Shown here one piece after another: positions 5,429-32,853 of a stretch of 34,326 nt of DNA (positions are counted from its first letter, which is position 1; every line of letters begins with the position of its first letter). A program made the translations under genes and the position numbers. Below the pieces are notes generated by a model. The model was not told the DNA's origin. It was given only the letters and a program-made list of their open reading frames with translations, and ran no database searches. The stretch is taken from contig JAGGXZ010000058.1 of the NCBI GenBank assembly GCA_021162805.1, positions 1 to 34,326 on the forward strand. Reading direction: 5' to 3'. This DNA comes from Candidatus Poribacteria bacterium (GTDB lineage: Bacteria > Poribacteria > WGA-4E > B28-G17).

Positions 5429-6130
5429 CTATTCAGCTTCCGTCCTGTTTTCTTTCAGCGCAGCCCATGTGAGGGGAAGTTCTCCATCGAGCTCCACGGG
5501 CAGGTTTATTCGAAACTGGCGTATGTTTTCCCCTTCGACCTTTATCTCTTCGAAGTGAATCGGGTGCTGACATGCCACGACTCCCAATCCCACTTTCCCC
5601 TCTTTGAACCCTTTCCTCTCGAAGTCAGCATCACCCACCCTCATACGTAATACCCCGTTCAGGTGGACCCAGATCCACATCCCGTCCAGCTTAACCTTGA
5701 TATGATCCTCCGGGAATTTCACCTCCGATGGCTCCATCCTTATTGTGTTGAAGCTTCCATTTATGAGCTTATATACGGTCAATCCGTCAGCGTTCAGCTT
5801 TAGCGCGTAACCGTTCAGCTCATCCACCATTCTGAAAAGAAGCAACGCCTGATCGCTCTCCTCCGCCCCTTCCTCAAATCTGACCGTAAGCTCTATGGTG
5901 CCGTTCGCTATATTCCATGGGCTTTGTAAAAGGGTGTAGAAGGCGCCGGAGAGGTTCCTGGCTTCCATCGGCAGATCCTGACTCTGGACGTAGGCACCCC
6001 CTTCAACTTTCCACTCACCCGATATGACCTTCCATCCGTAGTTATCGCCGTCCTCGAAATCGTCTATGAAGATCCCACCGAAGGCCGGGGTTAGGGAAAG
6101 AAGAAGCAAAGGTAACACCAGGCTTTTCAT
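5429..6130 (-). CDS. Secreted beta-sandwich (ConA-like) protein with TWAxLK C-terminal tail
   Basis: A 233-aa protein. Residues 1-18 are a clear signal peptide (MKSLVLPLLLLSLTPAFGG). The body (DDFEDGDNYGWKVISGEW, GGAYVQ, ALLLFRMVDELNGYALKLN, IKVKLDGMWIWVHLNGVL, GKVGLGVVACQ, HFEEIKVEG) is the strand pattern of a concanavalin-like / DUF1080-like laminin-G fold, often used to bind polysaccharide. No catalytic acid pair is evident. The C-terminus GELPLTWAALK followed by a short polar extension matches the tails of three other secreted proteins in this window. It lies 12 bases after the CBM9-like gene on the same strand, probably co-transcribed, with an AAGGAA binding site. Confidence 0.75.
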   Translation of the reverse strand: MKSLVLPLLLLSLTPAFGGIFIDDFEDGDNYGWKVISGEWKVEGGAYVQSQDLPMEARNLSGAFYTLLQSPWNIANGTIELTVRFEEGAEESDQALLLFRMVDELNGYALKLNADGLTVYKLINGSFNTIRMEPSEVKFPEDHIKVKLDGMWIWVHLNGVLRMRVGDADFERKGFKEGKVGLGVVACQHPIHFEEIKVEGENIRQFRINLPVELDGELPLTWAALKENRTEAE

Positions 6131-6142
6131 GGGAAGTTCCTT

Positions 6143-6937
6143 CTATCTGACCTTTACCGAAGCCCAGACAGTGGTAAGCTTTCCCCCAGGTGAAACAGCC
6201 AGGTTGACTTTTACAAACTTCAACTCACCGAAAACTGATGGATCGGTCCAGCTTCTATCAGCCACGTCTTTAACGCTCCATATCAGCTTGTGATCCCTTG
6301 GTCCCTTGTCATCGTCATCGTTTAAGTGGGTGTTAAACCCGATAACCAAGCCATCGCTCAGTTTGATCCCCCATGTCTCAAGCGGTAGAGCAGCTTCCAC
6401 AGCCCATCCATAATCGGTGTCCACTACGAAAGCTTTCGTCTTGGTGTTAGGCCCTTGAAGCTGCCCCACACATCCTCCCAGCTTGGGGTTATCCGGATCT
6501 CCTCCCACGTTATCCCTTCCTATCGTCACCTGCGAGTCGTTCCCGTCATAGGCCCCAGCTTTCTCATTGCCGCCGTCTATATATATCTCCACTGAATCAT
6601 CCTTCCACACATTGCATCCCGTATCTTCATCCACCACCTTCTTATCGTCGTAAACCTTGAAAGCGACGTAGAGGAACTGTTCATCGGCGAGACAGGCGAA
6701 CTCATATGAGGCGTCCTTATCGTCCTGAGCCGGCTGCGTTCCCATATCATGGGGCACTTTATGCCAGGGAACAGCTTTGGGCCAGTCGTTAAACTTGCCG
6801 TCAAGTTTCACGGTATAGGGGAAAGCACAGTTATATATGACACCGAGCTTCCCCGGATCTACCCCCGCCGAAAACACAAGCGGATTAACAAGGAACATAA
6901 CGATTGAGATGGCTGTGAACATAGATCTTATTTTCAT
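6143..6937 (-). CDS. Secreted CBM9-like sugar-binding protein with TVWASVK tail
   Basis: A 264-aa protein with a signal peptide (about 1-24, ending VFSA). The body matches the carbohydrate-binding module family 9 pattern (PF06452-like): LDGKFNDWPKA near 45, LYVAFKVYDDK, VWKDDSVEIYIDGG, then YGWAVEAALPLETWG and GFNTHLNDDDDKGPRDHKLIWS. Such modules bind reducing ends of sugars, alone or as parts of larger enzymes; here there is only the module. Asp-rich loops may bind calcium. The last 13 residues, GKLTTVWASVKVR, match the shared tail. A GGAGG binding site and a TTGACA/TATATT promoter precede it, and the lectin-like gene follows. Confidence 0.78.
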   Translation of the reverse strand: MKIRSMFTAISIVMFLVNPLVFSAGVDPGKLGVIYNCAFPYTVKLDGKFNDWPKAVPWHKVPHDMGTQPAQDDKDASYEFACLADEQFLYVAFKVYDDKKVVDEDTGCNVWKDDSVEIYIDGGNEKAGAYDGNDSQVTIGRDNVGGDPDNPKLGGCVGQLQGPNTKTKAFVVDTDYGWAVEAALPLETWGIKLSDGLVIGFNTHLNDDDDKGPRDHKLIWSVKDVADRSWTDPSVFGELKFVKVNLAVSPGGKLTTVWASVKVR

Positions 6938-6971
6938 CGTTAAGCCTCCATCCCGACTTTAACTGAAAACA

Positions 6972-7000
6972 AATATATCATACTATTCAACATCTGTCAA
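6972..7000 (-). promoter_or_regulatory. Sigma-70-type promoter for the CBM9/lectin gene pair
   Basis: Minus strand TTGACA (7000-6995), 17-base spacer, TATATT (6977-6972), about 35 bases before the ATG at 6937. Perfect -35, one mismatch in the -10. Confidence 0.6.
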
Positions 7001-7125
7001 GAATATCCTATTTATTTCCTAGAGGTAATCCAAAAACGACCTGCTGTCAGCCAGTTTGAAAACGCCCACCATCGGCTGCACGCCGACCACCGTAACTGAA
7101 AGCTAAAGCAGCTATGCTATGAGCG

Positions 7126-7154
7126 TTGCATTTTACCATAAGGAGTTGTATCAT
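7126..7154 (+). promoter_or_regulatory. Candidate promoter for the five-gene sugar operon
   Basis: TTGCAT (7126-7131), 17-base spacer, TATCAT (7149-7154); the predicted start near 7161 gives a leader of about 25 bases containing the AGGAGGAA binding site. The hexamers are imperfect. Confidence 0.45.
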
Positions 7155-7184
7155 TGATGATGAACCTCATCAGGAGGAACAGAT

Positions 7185-8165
7185 ATGAAGTTGAAAACCT
7201 GCTTGATCGGATGTGGAACGATCGCTCGTGAGCATGCAAGAGCATATGCTGAGCTTAAAGACGAGGTGGACGTCTTCGCCTTTGACATCGACGCCGACAA
7301 GGCTCGAGAGCTATGCGAGGAGTTTGGATTTGCTGGCACGTTCGCCTCCCTCGATGAAGCCCTCAGCTCACCTGATGTGAAGGCCGTCGATATATGCCTC
7401 CCCCATGATCTTCACCTTCCGGTTGCGCGCATGTGCGCCGATGCCGGCAAACATATCCTGATGGAGAAACCGATAGCCAGGACGCTCCAGGAGGCTGACC
7501 AAGTGATATCTGCAGTCCGATCCGCGGGGGTGATACTTATGATCGCGGAGAACATGCGGTTTCACCCGCCTGTTGTAGAGGCCAGGAAGCTCATCGATAA
7601 AGGTGCCATAGGAAAGCTTAACATGGTTCAAGCCAACTCATGGCAGTTCCACATCCCACCGGGCTGGAGACGATCGAAGGAAAGGACCGGCGGTGGAACG
7701 CTTATCGACCGAGGAATCCACTTCTTAGATATACCCCTCAACCTCGCCGGACCCGTGGAGACGGTCTACGCCCTGAAACCTCCCCAGACGGTGAAGGAGA
7801 TGGAAGGGGAGGACGGAGCGCTGGTGCTGATGAAGCACAGAAACGGAGTGATAAGTGAGGTCAACGTGACATGGGGCACCCCAGGAGCACCTCAAGGGCC
7901 CTGGTTCATCGCATGTGGGACCGATGGAAGCATTTACGAACAGAACGGCCTCTGGATCGAAAAGATGGGCGGGGAGAAAAGTTTAATTCCCACAGATCCT
8001 CCGGATAGGGCGATGTTCTTGGAGATAGAGCATTTCGTCAGGTGTGTTAAAGAGGGGAGAGAACCTATTGTAACCGGCGAGGTGGGAAGGGAGGATTTAG
8101 CTCTGGTAATAGCGGCGTATAAATCCATGGAAACCGGGAAACCGGTGGAGGTGAGTGAATTATGA
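7185..8165 (+). CDS. Gfo/Idh/MocA-family NAD(P)-dependent oxidoreductase
   Basis: A 326-aa cytoplasmic dehydrogenase of the inositol dehydrogenase / glucose-fructose oxidoreductase family, which oxidises or reduces sugars and cyclitols. The Rossmann domain opens with LIGCGTIAREHA (8-18). The family's EKP motif is intact at 94-96 (MEKPIA), with K95 the expected catalytic lysine. The second domain has GGGTLIDRGIHFLD (169-182) supplying the usual Asp (D175) and His (H179). Length is typical. It starts after a strong AGGAGGAA site and overlaps the next gene by ATGA, so the two are translationally coupled. The substrate is not predictable. Confidence 0.9.
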   Translation: MKLKTCLIGCGTIAREHARAYAELKDEVDVFAFDIDADKARELCEEFGFAGTFASLDEALSSPDVKAVDICLPHDLHLPVARMCADAGKHILMEKPIARTLQEADQVISAVRSAGVILMIAENMRFHPPVVEARKLIDKGAIGKLNMVQANSWQFHIPPGWRRSKERTGGGTLIDRGIHFLDIPLNLAGPVETVYALKPPQTVKEMEGEDGALVLMKHRNGVISEVNVTWGTPGAPQGPWFIACGTDGSIYEQNGLWIEKMGGEKSLIPTDPPDRAMFLEIEHFVRCVKEGREPIVTGEVGREDLALVIAAYKSMETGKPVEVSEL

Positions 8166-8998
8166 AGGTGGGATTTCTAACCGCTGTTTTGAATGATCGT
8201 CCCCTAGAAGAGGTATTGGACCTCGCTAAAGAGACGGGCTATGATGCCGTGGAGGTAGCGGCATGGCCGTGGAGCAGGCATATCTCGCCCAGAGAGACGG
8301 CAGAGGGGAAGGCCGAGGAGATACTCGGTAAGGTTCACGAGAAAGGGCTGACTATCTCAGCTTTAACCTGTCATGTCAACCATATTCACCCCGATAGCTC
8401 GGAGAGGGAAAACCTCAACGAGCATTTCAGGTGGGTTATACGGGCGGCGGGGGCGATGAAAGTTCCCGTGGTAACGGCGGTCAGCGGCGTTCCTCTATCC
8501 GATCTGGATGAGACGCAGAACTGGGAATTGTTCAAAGGGATCATGGGCGAGCATCTTAAAGCAGCGGAGGAGGTGGGAGTCAAGATCGCGATCGAGACCT
8601 TCCCTCCGTTTATGGTCCACAATATCCCCACGATCGAACGCATGTTCAACGAACTCCCTCAGGAGAACCTCGGTTTGAACTTCGATCCCTCGCATTTCGT
8701 CTGGCAAGGAGTTGACTATCTTGAAGCTGTGCGCCGTTTCGGAGGTAGGATCTTCCACTCACACGCGAAGGACACGGAGATTCTAGATCATATCCTCAGG
8801 CTTGAGGGGGTGATGGGTAAGGGATGGTGGAGGTTCAGAATACCCGGCTTCGGTCAGGTAAACTGGAAGGCGCTTATCAGCACCTATAAGGAGGTGGGTT
8901 ACGACTACGTGATCTCCTTCGAGCACGAAGATCCGCTCTTCGGCCCCGAAGAGGGTGTGAGGAAAACGGCTAGGTTTTTAAGGGAACTGGTGAAATAG
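8162..8998 (+). CDS. Sugar phosphate isomerase/epimerase (xylose-isomerase-like TIM barrel)
   Basis: A 278-aa protein of the AP-endonuclease-2 / xylose-isomerase-like superfamily (IolE/IolI/tagatose-epimerase type), which interconverts ketoses or inosose-like intermediates using a divalent metal. Metal ligands expected in the family are visible: E145 (IAIETFPP), D175 and H178 (NFDPSH), H201 (FHSHAKD) and E254 (ISFEHED). It begins inside the stop of the upstream oxidoreductase (ATGA overlap), the classic dehydrogenase-isomerase pairing for oxidised sugars, and is followed 29 bases later by the dipeptidase gene. Cytoplasmic, with no signal peptide. The exact reaction is unknown. Confidence 0.88.
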   Translation: MKVGFLTAVLNDRPLEEVLDLAKETGYDAVEVAAWPWSRHISPRETAEGKAEEILGKVHEKGLTISALTCHVNHIHPDSSERENLNEHFRWVIRAAGAMKVPVVTAVSGVPLSDLDETQNWELFKGIMGEHLKAAEEVGVKIAIETFPPFMVHNIPTIERMFNELPQENLGLNFDPSHFVWQGVDYLEAVRRFGGRIFHSHAKDTEILDHILRLEGVMGKGWWRFRIPGFGQVNWKALISTYKEVGYDYVISFEHEDPLFGPEEGVRKTARFLRELVK

Positions 8999-9027
8999 AA
9001 AATCCGATCGATTAGGAGAGGGGAAGG

Positions 9028-10842
9028 ATGGGCCTTAAAGCAGGAGCATGTAATGGAGACGATGCGGTGAGGAATGCAGTGATGTTATATCTCATCCTCC
9101 TATGGTTGGTCATATCGGCTGTGTCGGTGATAGCTCCTCCGGCTTTTGGATGTTATGCTGTTGTCGTCGGGAAGGAGGCATCGGCGGACGGTTCCGTTAT
9201 ATTCGGCCACAACGAGCAAAACGGGGGAAGGAGAATCATAAACCTCAGGGTCATACCGAGGATCAAGCACAAACCGGGAGATGTGGTGAAACTCCTCAGA
9301 GGAGGGAGCCTGCCCGAAGTTGATGAGACCTTCTCGTTTATATGGTCTGAAAACCCGGGGCTTGAATTCAGCGACACATATATCAACGAATGGGGCGTTG
9401 CCGTCGCCAGCGATTGCTGCAGAACCCGTGAGGACTCCTACGGAGAGCTTGTAGCTCGGGGGGAGATAGTGGACGGCGGAATAGGATATATGCTGAGGAG
9501 GTTGATCGTACAGAGGGCGAGAACAGCGAGGGAAGGGGTACGGATCGCCGGAAAGCTGATAGATAGGTTCGGATATGTCGCCTCAGGACGCACGCTCGTT
9601 ATAGCCGATCCGAATGAAGCTTGGCTGCTTTCCATGGTCAGAGGGAGACATTGGGTGGCTAGAAGGGTTCCGGACGATGAGGTAGCTTTCCTGCCCAACG
9701 TCCATATCATAACAGAGGTTAACCTGAAAGACACGGAGAACTTCATGGGTTCCCCGGATATCATAGAGTATGCGATTACGAGAGGGTGGTTCAACCCTAA
9801 AGGGGGAAAGCCGTTCAGCTTCAGGGCTGCATACAATCCCCCGCCGGATAGGAAGGACCCGCGTCAGTGGGTAGGCCAGTCGCTTGTGACGAGGCGAGTC
9901 CACGATCTGCCGCCTTCGGAGCAGCTTCCCTTCTCCGTCAAGCCCGATCACAAGCTCACCGTGAAGGATGTGATAGATATACTGAGATACCACGGCCCCG
10001 GAGGGTCGATCTGCACCTCCTATACGCAGGAGGCGGCGGTGTTTCAGCTTAGAAACTGGCTTCCCCCGGAGATCGGATGTATCTATTGGCGCGCCTCCGC
10101 CGAGCCCTGCTGCAGCGTACTCATCCCCTGGTATCTGGGGATCATCGAAACCCCTGAGAGCTACTACAGGCCCGCGGATATCAAGGAACAGTTGAGATTG
10201 TCTCATCACTTCAATCCACCCTCGGGGACGTTCGATTATGACCCAAAACTGGCCTGGTGGACGTTCAGGAGGTTACAGAGCCTCGTGAACGAAAATCGCA
10301 AGGCACGCATAAAGAGAGTTCGAGAGGTCTGGGACAGCTTCGAGGCTAAGGAGTTCGTCGATCAACCCTCCATTGAGGAGGAGGCGCTCAGGTTATATTC
10401 TAAGGATAAAGATCTGGCGAGGAAATTCCTGACCGACTATTCGAAGGGCCTCGCTTTGAAAGCCGTCGAGGTGGCAAACGATCTGATATGTGAGCTGACA
10501 ACTGGACCTCAGACGGGGATTGAGGGCTTGGGCGTCGAACCTGAGAGGAACTCTGAAAGAGCTAAGCATCTCCGTCCATTCCGAAGCTATCCCAACCCCT
10601 TCAGCTCAGAGACGACGATCACCTATGAGGTGCTCCGGACCTGTAAGGTTCGAATCTCCATCTACACTCCGACCGGTCAACTCGTTCGAACCCTTGTGGA
10701 GGGGGAGTATCCCCCGGGCAGCTATTCGGTGGTATGGGACGGGAGAGATGATAAGGGTCAGAAGTTGGCAAGCGGCTTGTATCTCTGCCGCGTGTCAGCG
10801 GGAGATTATAGAGCTGTGTGGAAAATGACCTTAATCCGATGA
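9028..10842 (+). CDS. Secreted C69-family dipeptidase with FlgD-like C-terminal sorting domain
   Basis: A 604-aa protein. An N-terminal hydrophobic stretch (about 19-40) ends PPAFG, placing C42 (GCYAVVVGKEASADGS) as the likely Ntn-hydrolase nucleophile of peptidase family C69 (PF03577). Other family blocks follow: FGHNEQNGGRR, INEWGVAVASD, IADPNEAWLL, and SICTSYTQEAAVFQLRNWLP with CIYWRASAEPCCSV near 345-375. From about residue 525 a FlgD/Por-type domain follows: SYPNPFSSETTITYEV, ISIYTPTGQLVRTL, VWDGRDDKGQKLASGLYLCRV. It is exported and probably surface-attached. The ATG at 9028 follows AGGAGAGGGGAAGG; an internal ATG 18 codons later would give a more standard signal peptide. It is the third gene of the sugar operon. 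Confidence 0.85.
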   Translation: MGLKAGACNGDDAVRNAVMLYLILLWLVISAVSVIAPPAFGCYAVVVGKEASADGSVIFGHNEQNGGRRIINLRVIPRIKHKPGDVVKLLRGGSLPEVDETFSFIWSENPGLEFSDTYINEWGVAVASDCCRTREDSYGELVARGEIVDGGIGYMLRRLIVQRARTAREGVRIAGKLIDRFGYVASGRTLVIADPNEAWLLSMVRGRHWVARRVPDDEVAFLPNVHIITEVNLKDTENFMGSPDIIEYAITRGWFNPKGGKPFSFRAAYNPPPDRKDPRQWVGQSLVTRRVHDLPPSEQLPFSVKPDHKLTVKDVIDILRYHGPGGSICTSYTQEAAVFQLRNWLPPEIGCIYWRASAEPCCSVLIPWYLGIIETPESYYRPADIKEQLRLSHHFNPPSGTFDYDPKLAWWTFRRLQSLVNENRKARIKRVREVWDSFEAKEFVDQPSIEEEALRLYSKDKDLARKFLTDYSKGLALKAVEVANDLICELTTGPQTGIEGLGVEPERNSERAKHLRPFRSYPNPFSSETTITYEVLRTCKVRISIYTPTGQLVRTLVEGEYPPGSYSVVWDGRDDKGQKLASGLYLCRVSAGDYRAVWKMTLIR

Positions 10843-10860
10843 AATCCGAGGGGGTGCGAC

Positions 10861-11922
10861 ATGGCCAAAGGCGATAGATTCCCCTCCGAAAGGAAATCCC
10901 TCAGGGATCCCAGGACGGGAGCATCCATACTGCAGTTAACCGATCACCCCTCGATCAACCACAACCTCTACTTCCTGAATCCATCCTGCACGCCCGACGG
11001 GAGGAAAATCATTTTCACCTCATACCGCACGGGGGAACCCAACCTGTTCATGGCGGATGAGGAGACGGGCCAGATCGTCCAACTCACCCAGCTTGACGAT
11101 CTGAACCCGTATTCGGCCGTCCCTGCAAACGATAACCGACGCCTCTTCTTCTCGACGAGGGAGGAGGTCAGGGCGGTCGATCTGGAGACGTTCGATGAGG
11201 AGGTGCTTGCCTCGTTCCCAGGCTGTAGGGTTGGGAACTGTAATCTGAGCGGAGACGGCTCCCTGATCGTCACGGTCGTAAGGTCTGAGGGTAAAAACGG
11301 AATAGCGGTCGTCGAGACGGATGGGTCAGGGGCAAGAGTGGTGTTTGAGACCGAACGTGCCGTCGGACACGTGCAGTTCTGCCGCGCCGAGGGAAACCTG
11401 ATCCTCTACTCAAGCGATATAACCCAGAGGATGTGGCTCGTCAGGCTGGATGGGACCGAGAACAGGCCGCTTTACCTACATGACGAGAACGAATGGATCA
11501 CCCATGAATCCTGGCTGGGGCGGAGCTATGAGGTGATGTTCGTTCACTGGCCCTATGCGCTTAAGGGGATAGATGTCAGGACCGAGGAGGTTAGGGTCAT
11601 AAGCGATTTCAACTGCTGGCACCCCTCCTCTCGTCTCGACGGATCGCTCATAGTCTGTGATACCGTCCATCCGGATATAGGGTTGAGGCTCATCGACCCG
11701 AAGACGGGCGAGCATCGCCCGCTCTGTTATCCGGAAAGCTCCTGTCGAGGAAGACAATGGACAAAGACCGTCCCGGCCAGGGGGAAGGTAGATGAGGGGA
11801 CATATGGGCCGCAATGGACCCATCCGCATCCCTCCTTCAGCCCTGATGGTCGGAAGGTGATCTATACGTCGGACAGGACGGGGCATCCACAGGTCTATCT
11901 GGTTTATCTAGAGGAGGTGTGA
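10861..11922 (+). CDS. Oligogalacturonate-lyase-like (PL22) seven-bladed beta-propeller
   Basis: A 353-aa protein with PD40/TolB-like blades (CTPDGRKIIFTSYRTGEPNLF, SFSPDGRKVIYTSDRTG) and no signal peptide. It resembles the oligogalacturonate lyase family (PF14583, PL22), cytoplasmic enzymes that split unsaturated galacturonate dimers. The metal-site pattern of characterised members, one His plus Q-x-x-H-x-H, is kept: H254 (NCWHPSS) and Q318, H321, H323 (QWTHPH). H215 in EWITHESW and H170 in GHVQF are further conserved-looking positions. It follows the dipeptidase by 18 bases behind GAGGGGGTG, and its own GAGGAGGTG tail serves the next gene. PL22-like proteins are common in organisms without pectin catabolism, so the true substrate may differ. 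Confidence 0.8.
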   Translation: MAKGDRFPSERKSLRDPRTGASILQLTDHPSINHNLYFLNPSCTPDGRKIIFTSYRTGEPNLFMADEETGQIVQLTQLDDLNPYSAVPANDNRRLFFSTREEVRAVDLETFDEEVLASFPGCRVGNCNLSGDGSLIVTVVRSEGKNGIAVVETDGSGARVVFETERAVGHVQFCRAEGNLILYSSDITQRMWLVRLDGTENRPLYLHDENEWITHESWLGRSYEVMFVHWPYALKGIDVRTEEVRVISDFNCWHPSSRLDGSLIVCDTVHPDIGLRLIDPKTGEHRPLCYPESSCRGRQWTKTVPARGKVDEGTYGPQWTHPHPSFSPDGRKVIYTSDRTGHPQVYLVYLEEV

Positions 11923-11925
11923 GGG

Positions 11926-13074
11926 ATGGAGAAGCTAAGGATGGCCGTGATAGGGGTGGGAAGACGTGCGAATGCGCATCTTCCCGTTATAGCGGTCATG
12001 GAGGATATCTTCGAATTGGTGGGCGTCTGCGACATAGACGCTGAAAGGGCCAGGGAGGTGGCCGAGAGGTATAAGACGGCCTGGTTCAGCTCCGTTTACG
12101 ATCTTTTCGAAAAGGCCAAGCCGGATGTGGTCGACATAATCGTCCCGGCGGACGGACATCACGCCGTAGCCAAAGCCGCGGCCGAAGCCAAGGTCCACAT
12201 GCTGGTCGAGACGCCGATAGCGATCACGCTGCCGTGTGCCGATCTGATGATCCAGGCTGCTCAGGAAGCCGGGGTGAAACTGGAGGTGGCCGAGAACGTC
12301 TGGAGGTTCCCCCAGCAGCGGATGCATAAGGTCATAGCCGATTCGGGAGTCATCGGAGATGTCGTCCGCACATATTGCGTCTACACAACGGGTGGATACC
12401 ATGCGATGAACATAATCAGAGTGCTGGCAGGGGCTGAAGCGGTGGAGGCGATGGGTAAGACAGGTTATTGGGAGATACCGCTCGTCACGGATCACGCCGG
12501 TAGGAGGATCACCTCTGAGTCCTGGATCATGGGGATCATCACCTTTGAAAACGGCGTCATAGGGATACACGAGGGTTCGAACACCTACTCCAGCGTGCTG
12601 AGACGCAACGCGCCCAGGTTCTATAGGGTCGATGGAGCTAAAGGATTCGCTGTGAACGACGATCTGTTCCTGGCGGAGGGAGGCGAGGTTAAGCGATATC
12701 AGATGAGGTACCTGACAACCGACTCCGCTCCGGATAGGATCGTGGTCGATACCGATCCTCCTCTGGAGTGGGAGAACCCTTTCAAGAGATACAGCCTCTC
12801 ATGGGGCCATCTCGCCGTGGCGTCGGAGCTTTACAGCATCTACAGGGCGGTGGTGGAGGATAAGGAGCCGGAATACGGGGCGATACAGGCCGGGAAGGAT
12901 CAGGAACTCTCGATAGCGATCCGCGAGTCCGCCGGGAAAGGTTCCCCTGTAAAACTGCCGCTTACAGAGATGACGGAAGTGGAAAGGGGGATACATGAAT
13001 CGTTCGCCAGGAGATACGGATGTGATCCGCTTGAGGTCGAAAAACTTATCCTGAAACCATATCCCAGGGTTTGA
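11926..13074 (+). CDS. Atypical Gfo/Idh/MocA-family protein (ETP in place of EKP)
   Basis: A 382-aa protein, last of the operon, 3 bases after the lyase-like gene. The Rossmann start VIGVGRRANAHLP (8-20) and the acidic turn VCDIDAERA (34-42) are standard. The motif that normally reads EKP is E95-T96-P97 (LVETPIAIT), so the expected catalytic lysine is missing. The Asp of the usual DxGxH segment is also not visible: the region reads TTGGYHAMN and keeps only the His. Either the active site is rebuilt or the protein has a non-redox or binding role. It is longer than the first family member, with a C-terminal extension. It is not a close paralogue of the first gene. Confidence 0.85.
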   Translation: MEKLRMAVIGVGRRANAHLPVIAVMEDIFELVGVCDIDAERAREVAERYKTAWFSSVYDLFEKAKPDVVDIIVPADGHHAVAKAAAEAKVHMLVETPIAITLPCADLMIQAAQEAGVKLEVAENVWRFPQQRMHKVIADSGVIGDVVRTYCVYTTGGYHAMNIIRVLAGAEAVEAMGKTGYWEIPLVTDHAGRRITSESWIMGIITFENGVIGIHEGSNTYSSVLRRNAPRFYRVDGAKGFAVNDDLFLAEGGEVKRYQMRYLTTDSAPDRIVVDTDPPLEWENPFKRYSLSWGHLAVASELYSIYRAVVEDKEPEYGAIQAGKDQELSIAIRESAGKGSPVKLPLTEMTEVERGIHESFARRYGCDPLEVEKLILKPYPRV

Positions 13075-13219
13075 AAAAAGGAGGATGTTTCTAATTGAAC
13101 CAGGTGGTTTACCAAAGTGAAACATAAAGCCGAGGTGGTTAATCCCTTTTAAGGGGAACGGCGGGAAAAGGTCTGAAAAATAGGGGCTTTCTTGGGATGG
13201 GCCGAGATGAAAAAAAGAC

Positions 13220-13249
13220 TTGACATTTGGTATGCAAATTGCTTATAAT
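13220..13249 (+). promoter_or_regulatory. Consensus promoter of an intergenic small RNA
   Basis: TTGACA (13220-13225), 18-base spacer, TATAAT (13244-13249). Both hexamers are perfect. The only thing downstream on this strand before the convergent PorV gene is a 95-base non-coding stretch ending in a terminator. Confidence 0.65.
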
Positions 13250-13255
13250 ATTAGT

Positions 13256-13350
13256 GATCCGCTTCTAACCTGTCTCCTCACCGCCCAAACCTGGGGAGGC
13301 AGGTATCACGCTCTTTGCCCCCATGGCTCGACCATGGGGGCTTTAATTTT
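13256..13350 (+). ncRNA. Candidate small RNA, about 95 nt, unknown family
   Basis: Bounded by the consensus promoter ending at 13249 and an intrinsic terminator at 13317-13350. Inside, CCTGTCTCC (13269-13277) can pair with GGAGGCAGG (13295-13303) to give a 9-bp stem with one G-U pair and a 17-base loop containing CACCGCCCAAACC. The 5' arm and loop edge contain CTCCTCACC, which could in principle pair with Shine-Dalgarno sequences. It does not resemble 6S, 4.5S/SRP or tmRNA, and the short open frame it contains has no binding site. The upstream gap 13075-13219 has only short hairpins of unknown meaning. Confidence 0.55.
13317..13350 (+). terminator. Rho-independent terminator
   Basis: A perfect 10-bp stem GCCCCCATGG (13317-13326) / CCATGGGGGC (13332-13341) with loop CTCGA, followed by TTTAATTTT. 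There is no T-run on the opposite strand, so it works only in the plus direction. It ends 3 bases before the end of the convergent PorV-like gene. Confidence 0.85.
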
Positions 13351-13352
13351 AT

Positions 13353-14324
13353 CTACATCCTTATGCTCACCAAGTGGCTTGCAGATAACCCTTTCATCTG
13401 TAGGGCATAATCCAGCGTTAAACCTTTGACCTTAAACCCCACCCCAAACGAGGGCTCCAGGTTAGCCAGGCCTGCCCGAAGGAAAAGCGCATCTTTTATT
13501 CCTATCTCCGATCCTAAGCTGAAGATGGTCGAGTATCGGGTTTTGATGGCACCCAGCAGGGTTAAGGTCCCCCATTTGCCGATGCGCCTTTCGCCTGAGA
13601 TCCCTATCCTGAAATCGGCGGGGATGGTGTCGCTCGTGCTGTTATTCCAGTGAATCCTGCTCGTAAACAGATCCGATATCATGCCGCCTATCCTTATGTC
13701 CCATCCTTCCATTCCCGGGAGGATCACCATCATACCGAGGTCCCAGCCGACCCCTTTGCCCCGCATCTTACCCATTCTCTGAGCGAAGATCTTCATGCTG
13801 GCGCCGAGGGCTATCACCTTCTCCCCTCGATAATACCTGAAATACCTCACAGGGGCTTGAGAGTATGAGAGGACGAAAGCTGTTTCGACGTCATCGAGAT
13901 ATCCTATGGGGGTGAAATCGGATCGCATATATGGGTTAACGAGCCTCTCGTCGTGTGATCCGGGAAGCTCGGGGTAGAGGGGTATATCTCCCACCCCTAA
14001 TCTTATCCATCCGATCCCAATGGAGCCGTATCGCGGGAGGGTATAAGCGGTCGAGATGAAGTCATAGGTTTCAAGTCCTAGAATCGCCTTATGGCTCATA
14101 CCGAAGCCCACCCCATTGGTCTGGAGCTCTAAAACGGCCGGGTTCCAGAAAATAGCGAAAGTGCCTTTACAGTTGGAAACCCCTCCTCCGCCTAAGGCGG
14201 CCTCCCTTGCGCTGGGAGCTATATCCATGAAATCCCTGGCATAATCAGCCCTGCAGTTCAGGGCGATCAGAAGCGGAATCAGGGTTAAAGACAGCCTCCT
14301 CAGAATGTTCAACGTCCCCTCCAT
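13353..14324 (-). CDS. PorV/PorQ-like outer-membrane beta-barrel protein
   Basis: A 323-aa protein with an N-terminal signal (about 1-26, LTLIPLLIALNCRA) and the family opening SAREAALGGGGVSN...FAIFWNPAVLEL near residues 37-67, the hallmark of the PorV/PorQ (UPF0164-type) outer-membrane family. The rest is alternating amphipathic strands (GYLDDVETAFVLSYSQAP, ALGASMKIFAQRMG, WDLGMMVILPG, GTLTLLGAIKTRY) ending in a strand-like IRM. In the type IX system PorV is the outer-membrane shuttle that hands cargo to the sortase PorU. Here it overlaps the 3' end of a C25/PorU-like gene by 16 bases and is the last gene of the minus-strand run, which strengthens that reading. Confidence 0.8.
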   Translation of the reverse strand: MEGTLNILRRLSLTLIPLLIALNCRADYARDFMDIAPSAREAALGGGGVSNCKGTFAIFWNPAVLELQTNGVGFGMSHKAILGLETYDFISTAYTLPRYGSIGIGWIRLGVGDIPLYPELPGSHDERLVNPYMRSDFTPIGYLDDVETAFVLSYSQAPVRYFRYYRGEKVIALGASMKIFAQRMGKMRGKGVGWDLGMMVILPGMEGWDIRIGGMISDLFTSRIHWNNSTSDTIPADFRIGISGERRIGKWGTLTLLGAIKTRYSTIFSLGSEIGIKDALFLRAGLANLEPSFGVGFKVKGLTLDYALQMKGLSASHLVSIRM

Positions 14325-17300
14325 ACGATCATCTTCCCCGTTTTAGAGGTTCTCCTTCCTCCGGATAAGACCACCACCCTATAGAAATACACCCCATTTG
14401 AGGCCGGGTTGCCCTCTTCGTCACGTCCATCCCATTTAACCTCGTTATAACCGGCCTTCGCGGGAAGATATCTCAGCCTTCTTATCAGCCTTCCGGATGT
14501 GGTGTATATTTTTATCTCGGCCCTATCGCCATCCCTTGTTAGGAGATATGCGATCCACGTCTCATGTGAGAAGGGATTGGGATGATTAGCGATCGCCTTG
14601 ATCCTCAACTCGCCGCCGACGTTGAGATCTATGGCTGCCTCCGAGCTGTTCAGGCTGGTATCATAAGCTATGACCTTAACCCTGTGTTTCCCCTCCCTCA
14701 GATCCGGCTCCCAGGTCAAGGTCGCCTCCCACGGACGTTTCTCCATTCTGCTGAAAACGTAATTCTCATCCTGTATCGGATTGCCATCCAGGTAGATATC
14801 AGCCCTCTGTATTCCGTTTTCATCCATGATCAGAGCTGAGATGGTGGGATTCTCGGAGCAGTAGGTTCCATCTATCTCGAGCTGACGATCGATCACACTC
14901 AAAGATATCTTGGGCGGCACCTTGTCCTCCGATCGACAGAGGGCATAGATCCCAAACTTTTCCACTTCCCCTTCAGCACCCTCTAAGGCCCTGATCCACA
15001 TCCCGGGCGACTCCTCCCATCGATACACCCCTATTTCACCTTCTGCCTTGACGTTAAAGGATATCTTGAACTTCGCTTTCGCCAGAGGTGGATCGGAGCT
15101 GATCTCATAAGCTTCCGTGAGGGGGTGGATCGAGGGCTGAGGGGAATTAAGCAGGCCGGTCAGCTTCACGGAGATCGAAACGGTCGTCGGCTCAATGACC
15201 GATCCGGGCGGGAATTCACACGTGACCCTGCCATCGGGGCTCCGCACCTTTCCCCCGGCGCTAGGGGTGACGTTAGAAGAGAAAGGCGTCAACCTCTTCT
15301 CCACCATGTTGTTTCCCTCATTCGCCTCCTTAATTTCGTCCTGTGGATCGACCACCACCACGATCTTGGTCTCGCCGGATATCCGGGGCAGCTTGACCAG
15401 AGTCGTTACCGATCGATGGGCCTTGACGGCTGGGATCAATGTCGTCAACACCTTATCTCCGACGTAAACCCTCACCTCGAACTTCCCCGAGCTTCTGCCG
15501 CCGAGGTTATCCACCTTGATGGACAGGAACATCTCACCCTGATCCTCGACGAGTCTCACCGAATCAGGCGAGATGGATAGATCCACCTCATCTTCACCGG
15601 GCATTCTGAAGTGAGTCGCCCCGATGGCATCCTCGCTTTCGTTTCTAAGGTAGGCGGTGATCGAAAGATCGACGCCGTCCGGAAGCCCTCTCAGATCGGA
15701 TCGGAACGTCCCGTTTTCGGAGGAGACCCTGATATCCCTTAACGGTCCGTTCTCCCCCGCAATCATGAGTTCACCGGCTCCATCTATCGGCGGAGTGGTT
15801 CTTCCTATCACCTCGATCGATTCCCCGTTTGGTATGATCTGTAGCTCGATTTGTCCCTCGGGCAACGGCACGTCCGAAAAGGGATCGCCGAGCAGATTAT
15901 AGAGATTAAGGATATCATAGATCAGCATATAATTCGGCATCAGGAACTTGGCCGCGACGACGACCGGCCCTAGTTTTCTGAAACCATGTTCAAACACTGC
16001 CCTGAAAAGCCCCTGTTCTAGCAGGTAATCCCCTTTAACCCATCCAAGTCCCGTGCTCCCCAGAACACCTATGGCTCCACCGTTCGGATGCATCAGCAGT
16101 TTTTCACCCAGCCCTCCGGACATAGCCGTAAAGCAGGTGAAACTGACCACGAATGGGAGTGCAGTGGCGTTATGAAGTTTGGGGACGTGCTCCATGGTCA
16201 AGACCTTCTCGTCGCTCCATATCCTGCCTCCGCCGTGGCCTTTGAAGTGCACCAAGGCGCATCCTTCGTTTATCGCCCCAATCAGATCTGATGAAGTCCC
16301 ATGAAAAGGCGATTTCTCATCCGTGTAGATCCTTTTAATCTCATAGCAAGACGGGATGAAATCGGAGATCAACCTCTCACTGCTCGACTCAAACCAGCCA
16401 GGGGCGGCGACGAAAACCAATCTACGTCTCCAATCGCCCGGATTCATCTCTTTTTCCTGTCTGATTATCTTCTCGGTGACCTTCTCCACCTCTTGAGGCG
16501 TTTTGGCTGGTATCCTTCCGATGAACATATCGGGGAGAGAATCGTCGCCGTTGACACAAACCAACAGGTTATCTGTGGAAGCGAAGCCGAACTTGAACGA
16601 GTTGAAGCGATACGCGGGGACGGAACCCACCAGAAGCACATATGAGGGGGCAGGTCGTTTCCAGTGGAAGTAGGCGTATCTCAGGAAATCCCTGATGGCC
16701 TTTGGGGAGAGGATACCGTAGTTGAATTCATCATAGATATCGCTCACCTTAGCCACATAGACCTTGAGCCGGCGCGATCTGTAAAGGGCGAGTCTTTTAA
16801 CCGCATCGGTTAGATTGTCGCTCGTGATTATCAGATAATCCGCCGAATTAGAGGCGTTTCTTAAGGAAGAAGCGGTGTCCATCTCGATCCTTACAGGCTT
16901 AAGCTTACGATCGGAGCTCAGGGCGATATATTGAGATCCCCCGGGGACATCGGTGAACTCCAAGGTGTATCCCGATCCATCCCTTCTGGGTTTCAGATTT
17001 GTGAATTTCACCCATCCGTCTCTGTAAACCTCAACACCTTTTCCTGAGAACCCCGACAGCCTGAAGGTTACCTCCTCCTTCAGATCGGGCGATTTGAAGG
17101 AGAGAAGATCGTCATGAGCAGTTAATCTTCTTGTGTATTCCACATCGATCCAATCGAGCACGCTCTGATCCACGTCGGCAGATTGAGCGTCGAGGAGACA
17201 TCTCATCGTCAGAAAGTTCACCCCGTTTCTGAGGATACCGGCCGGGAAAGCGGTTTCAAAGTCCATCTTGGTCTGCCCGCTCCATCGCAGATCGCCGATG

Positions 17301-18331
17301 GGCACGCCGTTCAGGTAAAGTTTCAGGTGATGATGGGTGAGCGATCTGCCGTAGAAGAGCACCCTGAGCTTTGCCATGCCGTTCGGGATCACCCCATATA
17401 GATCGAGCCGCACCCTTTTAGCCTCACCCAGGTTGATGTCCGTCCAGAACAGAGAGGACTTGAGCCCTGATATGTATCCCAGGCCGATCCGCCGTGCGTT
17501 CCGTTCAAAATGTTCCGTCACCACACACCTATCCACGATCTTCCCCGTTTTACCTCCTCCATCCTTGAGCGCCATCCTCTCGCCTCGTTTCGATCCCCAT
17601 GTCAGCCAGTAAACGTTCAAATCGGTGTAATCATCTCGATATGATTCACCCCAGAACTCGATATAGTCGTCGGGATCGAAGTGCCCGTCGCTTTCCCCGG
17701 CGACGAACAGCGGCACCACCCTACCCATGTTGAACATCCTGAAGGTTCTGGGATCTATATCCTCGATCGGAACCCCGGCCGATTTCAGATCTGAGAGGTT
17801 GATGTGATAGATACCATCCTCCCGCACGTATACCTTACAGGCAGGGCTTGGAGGGATCCAGCCCTTACCGGTCGGAGCGGGACGAGGTTGGGGCGATGAG
17901 ATGGGGGTAAAATTGGGAAGGAGGGAGGCTAGGAAATCGTCGAAGGGCCTTCCATATGAGGCGAGAGGATTTGAACCTGAACGGGAGATCCCCGTTTCGA
18001 TTTTCACCCTGATATGCTTATACCTCGGCTGAACGGTCAGCAGGGCCACGCGGGCGTCGCCCATGTATCCCGTTTCGTCCACCTTCACCAGATCTTCCTG
18101 AGCATCATCGGGTTCCAGGATTATAAACTTCGGGTCGAAGTTCGGTGAGATCTGAATGGGAAAACTCAGGGGAGAATCGTCCTCCTTGAACTTTATGTCA
18201 ACGATGAGAGAGTGAGGAACGGGGAGAAACTCGATCTCACCCCCTATTGCGGGGAATATGCAACCTATCATGAGTTGAAGCAAGGGCATGAGCGGTTGTA
18301 GGGTCCATCTCATGCCCTTGATCATCCTCAT
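14309..18331 (-). CDS. PorU-like C25 (gingipain-type) cysteine peptidase / sortase with CARDB and FlgD-like domains
   Basis: A 1340-aa exported protein. The signal-like N-terminus is at about 8-30; LMIGC could also be a weak lipobox. Residues 165-230 match the PorU/C25 N-terminal pattern (VREDGIYHINLSDLKSAG, DIDPRTFRMFNMG, DDYIEFWGES). The C25 catalytic domain spans about 495-825 (ADYLIITSDNL, YVLLVGSVPAYR, PDMFIGRIPAKT) with catalytic H699 (FKGHGG) and C733 (SFTCFT), 34 residues apart as in gingipains. A CARDB-like domain follows (about 915-1012), then Ig-like segments, and a FlgD/Por-type domain at about 1249-1337 (PNPFSHETWIAY, GVYFYRVVVL). It starts by ATGA overlap with the upstream gene and overlaps PorV. 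It could be the sortase or a surface protease. Confidence 0.82.
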   Translation of the reverse strand: MRMIKGMRWTLQPLMPLLQLMIGCIFPAIGGEIEFLPVPHSLIVDIKFKEDDSPLSFPIQISPNFDPKFIILEPDDAQEDLVKVDETGYMGDARVALLTVQPRYKHIRVKIETGISRSGSNPLASYGRPFDDFLASLLPNFTPISSPQPRPAPTGKGWIPPSPACKVYVREDGIYHINLSDLKSAGVPIEDIDPRTFRMFNMGRVVPLFVAGESDGHFDPDDYIEFWGESYRDDYTDLNVYWLTWGSKRGERMALKDGGGKTGKIVDRCVVTEHFERNARRIGLGYISGLKSSLFWTDINLGEAKRVRLDLYGVIPNGMAKLRVLFYGRSLTHHHLKLYLNGVPIGDLRWSGQTKMDFETAFPAGILRNGVNFLTMRCLLDAQSADVDQSVLDWIDVEYTRRLTAHDDLLSFKSPDLKEEVTFRLSGFSGKGVEVYRDGWVKFTNLKPRRDGSGYTLEFTDVPGGSQYIALSSDRKLKPVRIEMDTASSLRNASNSADYLIITSDNLTDAVKRLALYRSRRLKVYVAKVSDIYDEFNYGILSPKAIRDFLRYAYFHWKRPAPSYVLLVGSVPAYRFNSFKFGFASTDNLLVCVNGDDSLPDMFIGRIPAKTPQEVEKVTEKIIRQEKEMNPGDWRRRLVFVAAPGWFESSSERLISDFIPSCYEIKRIYTDEKSPFHGTSSDLIGAINEGCALVHFKGHGGGRIWSDEKVLTMEHVPKLHNATALPFVVSFTCFTAMSGGLGEKLLMHPNGGAIGVLGSTGLGWVKGDYLLEQGLFRAVFEHGFRKLGPVVVAAKFLMPNYMLIYDILNLYNLLGDPFSDVPLPEGQIELQIIPNGESIEVIGRTTPPIDGAGELMIAGENGPLRDIRVSSENGTFRSDLRGLPDGVDLSITAYLRNESEDAIGATHFRMPGEDEVDLSISPDSVRLVEDQGEMFLSIKVDNLGGRSSGKFEVRVYVGDKVLTTLIPAVKAHRSVTTLVKLPRISGETKIVVVVDPQDEIKEANEGNNMVEKRLTPFSSNVTPSAGGKVRSPDGRVTCEFPPGSVIEPTTVSISVKLTGLLNSPQPSIHPLTEAYEISSDPPLAKAKFKISFNVKAEGEIGVYRWEESPGMWIRALEGAEGEVEKFGIYALCRSEDKVPPKISLSVIDRQLEIDGTYCSENPTISALIMDENGIQRADIYLDGNPIQDENYVFSRMEKRPWEATLTWEPDLREGKHRVKVIAYDTSLNSSEAAIDLNVGGELRIKAIANHPNPFSHETWIAYLLTRDGDRAEIKIYTTSGRLIRRLRYLPAKAGYNEVKWDGRDEEGNPASNGVYFYRVVVLSGGRRTSKTGKMIVWRGR

Positions 18332-19533
18332 TTGGTTTTTACCTCAGCCCATGTGATAGCCTTTAACCTCCCGGATCGACCAAGCGTTATCGGTTCAGAT
18401 CTCTCCCGCTCGCCTTTGAGATTCACCCATTCGATCACATATCGGCGAGGGTTATCCGATGGTTTCGGATCGAGGAATTCGTATCTCCCGCCCATCTCCC
18501 CCTTAGATGGGATCAATTTGGAATTGATTTTAACCCAGCCGTCTTTCGACTTCCTATAGACGTTCCATCCGACGATGTCCACCTCCGATTCGGTGCTCCA
18601 GCGGATGATCACCCTATCACCTTTTTTCTCGGCACTGTGTAAGCTAAGGATTACTGGCAGGGAGATATCCTTATTTCCCTCTTCTAGATCCTTCGTTTTC
18701 GAATCACCCGTTACCCAGAAGTATCCTTTTTCAGATTTCGTATCTACATCGAAGATCTCAGGTTCTCCATTATAGTTACTATCGATTCGTTCATAGGACA
18801 CGAACTTCTCAATAGTTGTATTGCGAGGAAGTGCGAGACGGAAATAACCTATCCCGAACTTAGCATAATCAGGGTCATCAGTGCCAGGAGGATAAGGCGG
18901 GTCAGTTCCTACACTTTCATCTACACCGTTATCTTCGATTGCGTATGTTCCAAGGGGTTGCTGACTCGGCGGTGAATCATCCTCTTTTGCGTAAGCCGCT
19001 ATGACTTTCCCCGACGCTGGTGAATCAGCTTTGGCATAGCATACGGCTATTGGATCTTGCCCAGAACCACCGAGAAGAGTTACAGCATGCGTTTCGCTTT
19101 CTTCAAAGGCTTTGTACCAATTTCCGGCCTGCGTTTCGTAAGCGGCAAAAGCTTTAAAAGGACCAGATTTCCCCCGGGATTTCAGAAAGATCCAACCTTC
19201 CCAATTCCCATTGCTATCGAGTTCGTCTTTAATCGAAAAGCAATCCTCCGTGTAAGCAAGGTTCCATTGCTGTCCGTCCCATATGTGGTAGTACCCGCTT
19301 TCAGGATTAGCTCCTACTGTTATATCCTTCCAATCACCACTATCCAGCTTTGATTTAGCCGTTGTCCACCCAGTTATCCGGACGAAAACGGCGAACGGGT
19401 TGCCGTCTTTCCCGTCGTATTTCCTTCCGTCCACATATTGTGGATACACAACCGTCTCAATAGTTGCCCCAAAAGCGAAATAGGCATAAATGATAAACAA
19501 GGGGGTCAGAAGAAGAGTCAGTTTAACCTTCAT
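18328..19533 (-). CDS. Secreted protein with FN3-like domain and ITWAEVK tail
   Basis: A 401-aa protein with a signal peptide (about 1-22, ending AFG). The first 280 residues are not recognised: Gly/Asp/Tyr-rich, with GNWEGWIFLKSRGKSGPFKAF, WYKAF and repeated YAKAD/YAKED/YAIED motifs near 165-200. Residues about 293-385 form a fibronectin-III-like sandwich (ILSLHSAEKKGDRVIIRWST, VDIVGWNVYRKS, YVIEWVNLKGE) of the type placed before sorting tails in secreted proteins of this kind. The last 14 residues, GRLKAITWAEVKTK, share the W-[AG]-x-[VIL]-[KR] tail. A GGAGGGC binding site precedes the ATG. The stop overlaps the PorU-like start by ATGA, so it is expressed together with the putative sortase. 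Confidence 0.7.
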   Translation of the reverse strand: MKVKLTLLLTPLFIIYAYFAFGATIETVVYPQYVDGRKYDGKDGNPFAVFVRITGWTTAKSKLDSGDWKDITVGANPESGYYHIWDGQQWNLAYTEDCFSIKDELDSNGNWEGWIFLKSRGKSGPFKAFAAYETQAGNWYKAFEESETHAVTLLGGSGQDPIAVCYAKADSPASGKVIAAYAKEDDSPPSQQPLGTYAIEDNGVDESVGTDPPYPPGTDDPDYAKFGIGYFRLALPRNTTIEKFVSYERIDSNYNGEPEIFDVDTKSEKGYFWVTGDSKTKDLEEGNKDISLPVILSLHSAEKKGDRVIIRWSTESEVDIVGWNVYRKSKDGWVKINSKLIPSKGEMGGRYEFLDPKPSDNPRRYVIEWVNLKGERERSEPITLGRSGRLKAITWAEVKTK

Positions 19534-19602
19534 CTTTGCCCTCCTTTATTTGGTTTTAATCTGACCCGCGTGCGATCGCGGATCGAAGCACGATCCGGGG
19601 AA

Positions 19603-20493
19603 TCACCTATGTCTCCGAATCGCTCCCCAAGTGGTGATCGCCATTCCATGCCGCGACACGCCTGTTACGCTTACAGGGCGGAAGAGATTTCCCAGTGGAT
19701 CCATCGCCTCAAGCAGATATTCATGTCTTCCGTTCCCCGGCACGAAATCCGAAAACTCATATCGGTCTCTTCCTCCGCCGAGGGGTGAAGAGGTTAGGAG
19801 GGTGAGATCTCCTCCTTCATCCTGACGATAAACCCGCCATTTGAACTCCCGTGCCCCGATATCGACGGACCAGAGCAGCTTCACGTTATTCCCCTTTCGA
19901 AGGATCTGAAGCGATCTCACCGGTTTTGGAAGCGGTGAAAGTGAATTACAGGGAGTGGGGTCATCGCGGAGGATGAAGTCCCGGCCGTTATCATCGGTAT
20001 CCATCGCCGGGCCGCAGAGGCCGTTCCTTAGAACCACCAGTTTACGCTCGACGCTTTTACCGGGATCGGGATTAAGCGTGGGTGATCCCTCCGGATCGCT
20101 TGCATCGCCCATTCCCACGAGATCCACGATATCCCCATTCGAATTGTAAAGCAAAACGGTGTTATTCGCCGCCACGCTGTAACTGGACGAGCTGTAATTG
20201 AGATCCCTTTCGACTTCGCCTTTATACTCTTTATGGGCGATAAGAAGGAAGGAGAAAGGTGGCATGGTTATATCGGGGAACTTCGTGAGGAGGTTGGATT
20301 CCCTGCCGGAAGAGGTCATCTTCCGGAGACGCCATCCGGAGAGATTCACCGGCGAGGGGGAAGGGTTAAAGAGCTCTATGAACTCATCACGGGCGGTCTC
20401 ACCGGCCAGTTGAATCTCGCTAATCAGAACGGTCCCAGAACCACCGTATCCGCTGAATATTACGAGAACTACTATGGTGAAAATAAAAATCAT
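19603..20493 (-). CDS. Secreted lamin-tail-domain protein with FN3-like domain and TTWGAIR tail
   Basis: A 296-aa protein. Signal peptide about 1-20 (MIFIFTIVVLVIFSGYGGSG), then a lamin tail domain (PF00932-like) at about 21-160: VLISEIQLAGETARDEFIELFNPS, VNLSGWRLRK, NNTVLLYNSNGDIVDLVGMGD, GKSVERKL. A second sandwich at about 190-280 (VRSLQILRKGNNVKLLWSV, FKWRVYRQD, HEYLLEAMDPLGN) resembles FN3. The end, GMAITTWGAIRRHR, matches the shared tail. LTD modules occur in cell-surface proteins and nucleases; no nuclease motif is present. It starts 35 bases after the ABC ATPase gene with a weak AAGG site. Confidence 0.8.
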   Translation of the reverse strand: MIFIFTIVVLVIFSGYGGSGTVLISEIQLAGETARDEFIELFNPSPSPVNLSGWRLRKMTSSGRESNLLTKFPDITMPPFSFLLIAHKEYKGEVERDLNYSSSSYSVAANNTVLLYNSNGDIVDLVGMGDASDPEGSPTLNPDPGKSVERKLVVLRNGLCGPAMDTDDNGRDFILRDDPTPCNSLSPLPKPVRSLQILRKGNNVKLLWSVDIGAREFKWRVYRQDEGGDLTLLTSSPLGGGRDRYEFSDFVPGNGRHEYLLEAMDPLGNLFRPVSVTGVSRHGMAITTWGAIRRHR

Positions 20494-20528: not shown

Positions 20529-21308
20529 TCAACCGACCTCCTGCCCATCAAGCATTCCGACACGCAATTTGATCTCAGCCCTGGTCTCAATCTTGGCGAT
20601 CTTCCCATCCTGGATATGGAAGATCCTATCGGACACATCGAGCATTTTCGTGTCGTGTGTGGCCGTTATGACGGTAACGCCTTTCTCCTCATTCATCTGC
20701 TTGAGCAGATAGATGATCTCCAATCCGGTGTGGGTGTCCAGGTTTCCCGTGGGCTCATCGGCCAGTATCAGGGCGGGATCGTTAGCTAAGGCCCTTGCTA
20801 TGGCAACCCTCTGCTGCTGTCCTCCGGAGAGCTCCCTGGGCTTATGCTGAATTCTATCGCCCAACCCGACAAGCGTCAGCAGCTCTATCCCTTTCTGTAT
20901 GCTCTCATCGGGGGTCTTTCCGGCGAAGATCATAGGTAGGGTGACGTTTTCCAGGGCGGTCATAACGGGGATCAGGTTGAAGGTCTGGAAGATATAGCCG
21001 ATCTTTCTACATCTCAGCCACGCTAGCTCATATGCGTCGAGCTGGGCGATATCGACCTCATCGATGTAGACCCTGCCTTCTGTGGGCTTATCCAGACCGC
21101 CGATCATATTGAACAGCGTCGTTTTCCCCGATCCGGAAGGACCCATGATCGAGACGTATTCGCCCCGTTTGACCTCCATATTTATCCCGCGCAACGCCTC
21201 CACGATTACCTTTCCCATCTGATATTTCTTCACCACGTTTCTCACGCGGACGGCGTTTTCCTCGGGAAGCTGTCTGAGTTTTATCACCTTCCCATTTCCA
21301 TCTTTCAT
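20529..21308 (-). CDS. ABC transporter ATPase of LolD/MacB type
   Basis: A 259-aa nucleotide-binding subunit. Walker [10 protein letters not shown] (56-64), Q-loop FQTFNLIP (108-115), signature LSGGQQQR (160-167), Walker [13 protein letters not shown] (180-191) and H-loop THD (217-219) are all intact. The spacing and the EPTGNLD sequence are characteristic of the LolD/MacB/FtsE branch that drives FtsX-type permeases in mechanotransmission rather than substrate import. The only FtsX-type permease in the window is the giant protein encoded upstream on the same strand, making it the likely partner. It overlaps the PqqD-like gene by ATGA. The extra N-terminal 20 residues and a C-terminal extension after the H-loop are slightly longer than usual. 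Confidence 0.93.
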
Positions 21309-32753: not shown

Positions 32754-32853
32754 CAATTCTCGTCCCTCCTCCGATCACTCCGTCCTGGTGGACGAAGATC
32801 ATAATTTCAGGATCATACCAAGACCCTTCTGTGACCCTGCGGGTTCGGGAAAT

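Follow-up and report, generated by a model that had tools for sequence, protein, structure and literature searches.

The closest described counterpart of the C-terminal tag reported here is the T9SS type A CTD (TIGR04183/PF18962) or FlgD-like CTD, which is likewise a C-terminal address on Sec-exported proteins, occurs in the same genomes and replaces the tag on an FN3 protein encoded near PorU. Secretion can be directed by as little as the final 22 residues of such a CTD; in HBP35 these are sufficient for GFP, with the terminal lysines playing a part (PMC10202324). The type A/FlgD CTD differs from the tag in that it comprises 70-100 aa, folds as an Ig-like domain, contains motifs A-E and is carried by large proteins. 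The type B (TIGR04131/CHU_C) and type C CTDs are alternative T9SS signals, as the tag would be if it were read by a T9SS. Different shuttles read different T9SS CTDs, with type B CTDs being read by dedicated PorP/SprF shuttles (PMC12618676). Unlike the tag, the type B and type C CTDs are about 100-235 aa in length, and no match to them was present among the families listed for the tagged proteins (i.e. the carriers).

Short C-terminal motifs on varied exported proteins are also known from the PEP-CTERM/exosortase, GlyGly-CTERM/rhombosortase and LPXTG/sortase systems, in all of which the motif must be followed by a TM helix (PMC11980579). MYXO-CTERM/myxosortase resembles the tag in being phylum-wide and present on dozens of proteins per genome (PMC11980579), but is tripartite, consisting of a motif with Cys, a TM helix and an Arg cluster. 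The TM helix that follows the motif in these four systems was not found with the tag, as a TM-like stretch within 60 residues of the C-terminus was present in none of 271 carriers (0/271). Neither Pfam nor NCBIfam has a model of the tag, no PDB sequence match was significant and the tails alone gave no match to NCBIfam. The type A CTD model (TIGR04183/PF18962) matched neither the four carriers described below nor the listed families of 104 carriers from the same genome. No description of the tag was found in the open-licence PMC papers searched. It appears to be a new class of C-terminal sorting signal, ~15 residues long, lacking both a TM helix and a CTD fold and present on ~100 proteins per genome.

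Four exported proteins with a common ending

The window (i.e. the whole 34,326-nucleotide stretch analysed, contig JAGGXZ010000058.1 of the Candidatus Poribacteria assembly GCA_021162805.1) contains four ORFs that an earlier note had singled out for a shared ending on unrelated secreted proteins (Table 1). All four were found where the note had placed them, on the reverse strand, with the endings that it had written (i.e. ...VELDGELPLTWAALKENRTEAE, ...AVSPGGKLTTVWASVKVR, ...ITLGRSGRLKAITWAEVKTK and ...VSRHGMAITTWGAIRRHR). Inspection of the window also bore out the claims that codons vary among the four tail copies and that each protein has a signal peptide, as called by a simple rule and not by SignalP. 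The bodies differed as described: carrier 1 is ConA-like/CBM66-like (top PDB match CBM66, E 4.9e-12), carrier 2 has a CBM9_1 domain (E 3.6e-31), carrier 4 has a lamin tail domain (LTD, E 2.5e-15) and carrier 3 joins an unknown part to an FN3-like stretch, which was assigned solely because it matches an FN3 protein of the T9SS type and gave no Pfam hit.

Table 1. Carriers, tags and neighbouring T9SS-related genes in the window
Feature	Position	Strand	Description
Carrier 1	5429..6130	-	233 aa, signal peptide, ConA-like (CBM66-like) domain, tag at C-terminus
Tag of carrier 1	5432..5497	-	VELDGELPLTWAALKENRTEAE
Carrier 2	6143..6937	-	264 aa, signal peptide, CBM9_1 domain (residues 46-242)
Tag of carrier 2	6146..6196	-	VSPGGKLTTVWASVKVR; tail-profile match E 1.3e-8
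C69 dipeptidase	9028..10842	+	Non-carrier contrast; FlgD/type-A-like CTD, the other tail type of this genome
PorV-family outer-membrane protein	13353..14324	-	323 aa; PorV_fam 83.8 bits (cut-off 90), PorVQ2 E 7.8e-25
PorU-like C25 peptidase	14309..18331	-	1340 aa; Peptidase_C25 E 9.2e-75; own C-terminus a FlgD/type-A-like CTD, FlgD_ig E 3.6e-10
Carrier 3	18328..19533	-	401 aa, signal peptide, unknown N-terminal part and FN3-like stretch
Tag of carrier 3	18331..18390	-	ITLGRSGRLKAITWAEVKTK; one extra residue before TW; profile match E 8.1e-6
Carrier 4	19603..20493	-	296 aa, signal peptide, lamin tail domain (residues 19-129)
Tag of carrier 4	19606..19659	-	VSRHGMAITTWGAIRRHR; profile match E 5.7e-8

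Carrier 3 and the start of the PorU-like gene overlap by 4 bases. The PorU-like protein scored 332.9 bits against T9SS_sortase, under the cut-off of 420, and is a candidate tag-processing enzyme, while the PorV-family protein is a candidate shuttle. The earlier note had suggested that the PorU/PorV pair encoded beside two of the carriers might read the tag. In the window this pair does share an overlapping operon with the two carriers; the adjacency was not conserved at 20 orthologous PorU loci of other Poribacteria or beside the PorV paralogues that were looked at, and operon position was dropped as an argument for this pair being the reader.

Two further regions of the window were recorded. 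The adjoining ORFs at 74-1492 and 1506-2969 (both on the reverse strand) have neither an obvious signal peptide nor a tag; the latter contains beta/gamma-crystallin repeats by Pfam and the former is similar in look. A 2,334-aa ORF at 25752-32756 (reverse strand) seems to combine a peptidase-like front with LysM-like and calcium-loop-like stretches and permease-like membrane parts, and lies in one gene run with an ABC ATPase (20529-21308).

Occurrence and placement of the tag

A profile HMM was built from 15 tails and run against the 4.35-Mb genome from which the window derives. Matches numbered 126 at E<=10 and 85 at E<=1e-3, and about 104 distinct carriers were extracted from the fetched loci. 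A DNA pattern of the motif near a stop codon gave 620 matches as compared to 216 with the reversed pattern. The tag is linear and C-terminal, with the consensus [AP]VxPx[GD]KL[APTS]T[TILV]W[GA]x[ILV]K-x(1-16)-stop, and ends 4 to 20 residues past the W, often in R or K. When the 104 carriers were anchored on the W (104/104), G or A at +1 and K or R at +4 were each found in 104/104, V at -10 in 92/104, K at -5 and L at -4 each in 91/104 and P at -8 in 80/104. These carriers were small (median 260 aa, n=104) and matched 58 Pfam families, among them Laminin_G_3 (37 carriers), 3keto-disac_hyd (9) and CBM9 (7) as well as beta-propellers, PKD and cohesin. On contigs picked regardless of the tag, 7/221 ORFs of at least 100 aa (~3%) were tagged. 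Tandem arrangement was common, with 59 pairs of neighbouring carriers. In several sponge Poribacteria (L300, L303, L307, L308, L311 and L314), tandem tagged pairs were seen a few kb downstream of a PorU orthologue, near a nucleoside-diphosphate-kinase-like gene.

Placement was strictly C-terminal. Across 1,205 distinct ORFs, 251 copies of the strict motif were C-terminal and 0 internal; many of these loci were chosen for holding the tag, so that 251 is a count and not a frequency. A signal-peptide-like start was detected by the simple rule, and not by SignalP, on 228/238 carriers (96%) as compared to 73/205 untagged ORFs from random contigs (36%); the Sec signal peptide of a T9SS substrate is thus present on nearly all carriers. 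The window ORF at 74-1492, with no apparent signal peptide, was untagged, whereas two exported proteins sharing its domain (L078) were tagged. An equal occurrence of the motif at internal positions or in cytoplasmic proteins, which the earlier note had named as counting against its proposal, was therefore looked for and not found, and its description of the tag as modular, confined to the C-termini of exported proteins and different from the known CTERM signals is supported.

The possibilities that the four tails are the last strand of one shared domain or resemble one another by chance were considered. Many carriers are beta-sandwich proteins (Laminin_G_3 in 37/104), as a shared strand would lead one to expect, but the tag occurs on unrelated folds. 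An AlphaFold2 (AF2) model of carrier 1 with 27 relatives (mean pLDDT 83) has a high-confidence domain ending at about residue 201, pLDDT values of <50 for residues 213-219 and an isolated low-confidence helix at 222-232. As the model places the tail outside the fold, the tag is predicted to be a flexible appendage of the folded domain. The CBM9 domain of carrier 2 ends at residue 242 of 264, before the tag; the AF2 model of this carrier (4 sequences, mean pLDDT 41) was left out of the structural reading. An Ig-like CTD is absent from the tag, which spans ~17-25 residues as compared to the 70-100 aa beta-sandwich of type A. The shared strand was ruled out by the unrelated folds together with the model of carrier 1. 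As for chance, the ending W[AG]x[VIL][KR] within ~10 residues of the stop has a probability of 7.9e-4 per protein at the composition of the window, and its presence on 4/20 window proteins (>200 aa) corresponds to p ~2e-9, with internal copies of the same 5-mer at 1 observed versus 0.8 expected. This value, together with the presence of the tag in 85/85 genomes, ruled out chance resemblance. Taken jointly, these two explanations are hardly credible, and the tail is almost certainly a genuine short C-terminal sorting tag.

A scan of related genomes with a tail profile, as the earlier note had proposed, showed the tag to be phylum-wide, C-terminal and linked to signal peptides. All 85 Poribacteria genomes (10 families, 22 genera) contained the tag in 16 to at least 98 copies (HMM, E<=1e-3); gene starts were mechanical calls and the per-genome copy counts are lower bounds. 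An exact DNA pattern for KLxTTWGxIK was matched against 84,980 species genomes and, among the matches listed, 76 of 80 loci were named Poribacteria and 83/85 matches ended <=12 residues from a stop. The two exceptions among the matches listed (in Sphingobacteriales and Hydrogenispora genomes) look like chance. No tag was found in Bacteroidota (0/198 genomes). A 'Deltaproteobacteria' hit was the only tagged genome in the sample of its phylum (1/198) and is likely to reflect misbinning or transfer. On this 3.7-kb contig (L178, reverse strand, ~1093) the tag follows the stop of an esterase-like ORF but is in a different reading frame, as in a frameshift or a chimeric contig.

A second home of the tag was found in the family of 'Pseudomonadota bacterium RHO2_bin_21' (G085) and its relative G483, a sponge-MAG lineage labelled Pseudomonadota. 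The G483 genome is a single contig of 2.84 Mb with at least 8 tagged proteins and, given the length of this contig, the tag there is not a binning error; misbinning was accordingly dropped as the explanation of all non-Poribacteria hits, that of G085 included. In these two genomes the tags lie on paralogous protease-like exported proteins and an apparent second family, often in tandem pairs (L319-L321, L326 and L333 in G483; L322-L324 in G085).

Two tail types and a putative T9SS of Poribacteria

Tails of the Por secretion type were noted in Poribacteria by Kamke et al. 2014, who found no Por structural genes (PMC3909097), and the T9SS is still called exclusive to Bacteroidota in recent papers (PMC12618676). 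Similarity to SprA_N was detected in 79/85 Poribacteria genomes, typically in one protein of ~2,150-2,300 aa; the copy in the genome of the window matched TIGR04189 with E 1.8e-47 and 161.5 bits, under the 200-bit cut-off. PorU-like proteins were present in 85/85 genomes, none above the curated cut-off, and most SprA matches likewise scored under curated cut-offs. PorV-family matches numbered 8-24 per genome, with 85/85 genomes having one above the cut-off. Judged by sequence similarity, a divergent T9SS outer-membrane set (i.e. SprA, PorU and PorV-like proteins) is present in Poribacteria, and the translocon SprA/Sov, PorV and PorU on which T9SS substrates depend are thus represented by divergent matches. 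As these marks are phylum-wide, their presence or absence gives no contrast inside Poribacteria. The occurrence of SprA/Sov-, PorU- and PorV-like proteins in nearly all Poribacteria stands against the published restriction of the T9SS to Bacteroidota; one of the divergent SprA/Sov-like proteins, which are ~2,000-2,300 aa in length, is encoded at L284:5368-11397 (reverse strand).

The genome of the window contained 33 matches to CTDs of the Por_Secre_tail/FlgD type. The two tails were never found on one ORF (0 among 271 tagged and 47 FlgD-tailed ORFs) and, in the same set, differed in the size of their carriers, with medians of 261 aa for tagged ORFs and 1042 aa for those with a FlgD/type-A CTD, while some domain families were decorated by both. 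In another Poribacterial family (G002), a protein encoded a short distance (a few genes) away from the PorU orthologue has a C-terminal FlgD CTD together with an FN3 that matches the FN3 stretch of carrier 3 with 33% identity over 101 aa (E 3e-10), a pair that would represent a natural tail swap at a corresponding place near PorU. The tag has no sequence similarity to the FlgD CTD, and hhalign against the FlgD/type-A tail gave 0.2% probability; this profile comparison ruled out the tag as a degenerate remnant of a FlgD/type-A CTD, both of which have a GKL/GQL stretch.

Candidate readers of the tag

It is probable that this short linear tag, on ~100 proteins per genome in Poribacteria and at least one other lineage, is read either by a T9SS outside Bacteroidota or by a wholly new machine. 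A T9SS acting through the PorV-family/SprA route would be the first choice because of the divergent T9SS set, the putative tail swap, the mutually exclusive tails and the precedents of HBP35 and of shuttles with different CTDs. The tag has a short basic end and is predicted to follow a flexible linker on Sec-exported proteins that are mostly small (~260 aa). After Sec export, the exposed tag would present W, L and I on one face and K on the other. In the periplasm, the tag might then be bound by a shuttle of the PorV family or by a SprA-like translocon belonging to a Poribacterial T9SS, either of which would take the protein to the surface. The tag would in that case serve small cargo in the way that the Ig-like type A/FlgD CTD serves large cargo. 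Cleavage in the linker by a PorU-like C25 protease may follow and is the least certain step. Several findings speak against a T9SS reader: the tag and the FlgD CTD are dissimilar in sequence, the tag is absent from the Bacteroidota, where the T9SS is best known, and the PorU/PorV adjacency is not conserved. The main counter-evidence is that the tag-bearing G483 genome showed no SprA, PorU, PorV or FlgD tail in the 0.90 of 2.84 Mb (32%) sampled; about 3 PorV genes would be expected in this sample at Poribacterial density, and the absence is therefore suggestive and not conclusive. The whole statement, of a modular C-terminal sorting tag with the T9SS as its reader, has a little under an even chance of being correct.

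The tags of G085 and G483, outside Poribacteria, and the lack of a T9SS gene in the sampled part of G483 would fit with the tag having its own receptor or sorting enzyme, independent of the T9SS and common to Poribacteria and at least one other lineage, as would a tag that is unlike any known CTD and absent from Bacteroidota. No candidate gene for such a reader was found beside the carriers in G483 or in Poribacteria, however, and the FlgD/tag swap near PorU and the strict exclusivity of the tails would be left unexplained. A dedicated reader of this kind is a tentative possibility.

Encapsulins and microcompartments load cargo through short terminal amphipathic peptides that dock it, as the tag might, but their cargo is cytosolic whereas tag carriers have signal peptides. 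The short amphipathic tail could act as a docking peptide that keeps proteins attached to an envelope scaffold in the periplasm or on the surface, and neither translocation nor cleavage would take place. The terminal amphipathic helix predicted with low confidence, the many carriers that are binding modules (LamG, CBM9 and CBM66-like) and their frequent tandem arrangement are consistent with docking; no scaffold candidate was found and the swap with a T9SS CTD suggests a role in transport, which makes docking unlikely. Instead of acting in sorting, the short exposed hydrophobic C-terminus might serve an envelope protease as a mark of stability or quality control. This is very improbable given that some ten positions are strongly conserved over unrelated proteins of a whole phylum, and that the homologue lacking a signal peptide is untagged while its exported L078 relatives are tagged.

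Sorting tags lead to sorting machines, as PEP-CTERM, GlyGly-CTERM and MYXO-CTERM each yielded a new enzyme. The tag, for which there is no database model, is among the commonest protein features of an uncultured phylum that is prominent in marine sponges. It provides a handle on the proteins that Poribacteria display on their surface, and the compactness of the motif makes the question of its reader directly testable.
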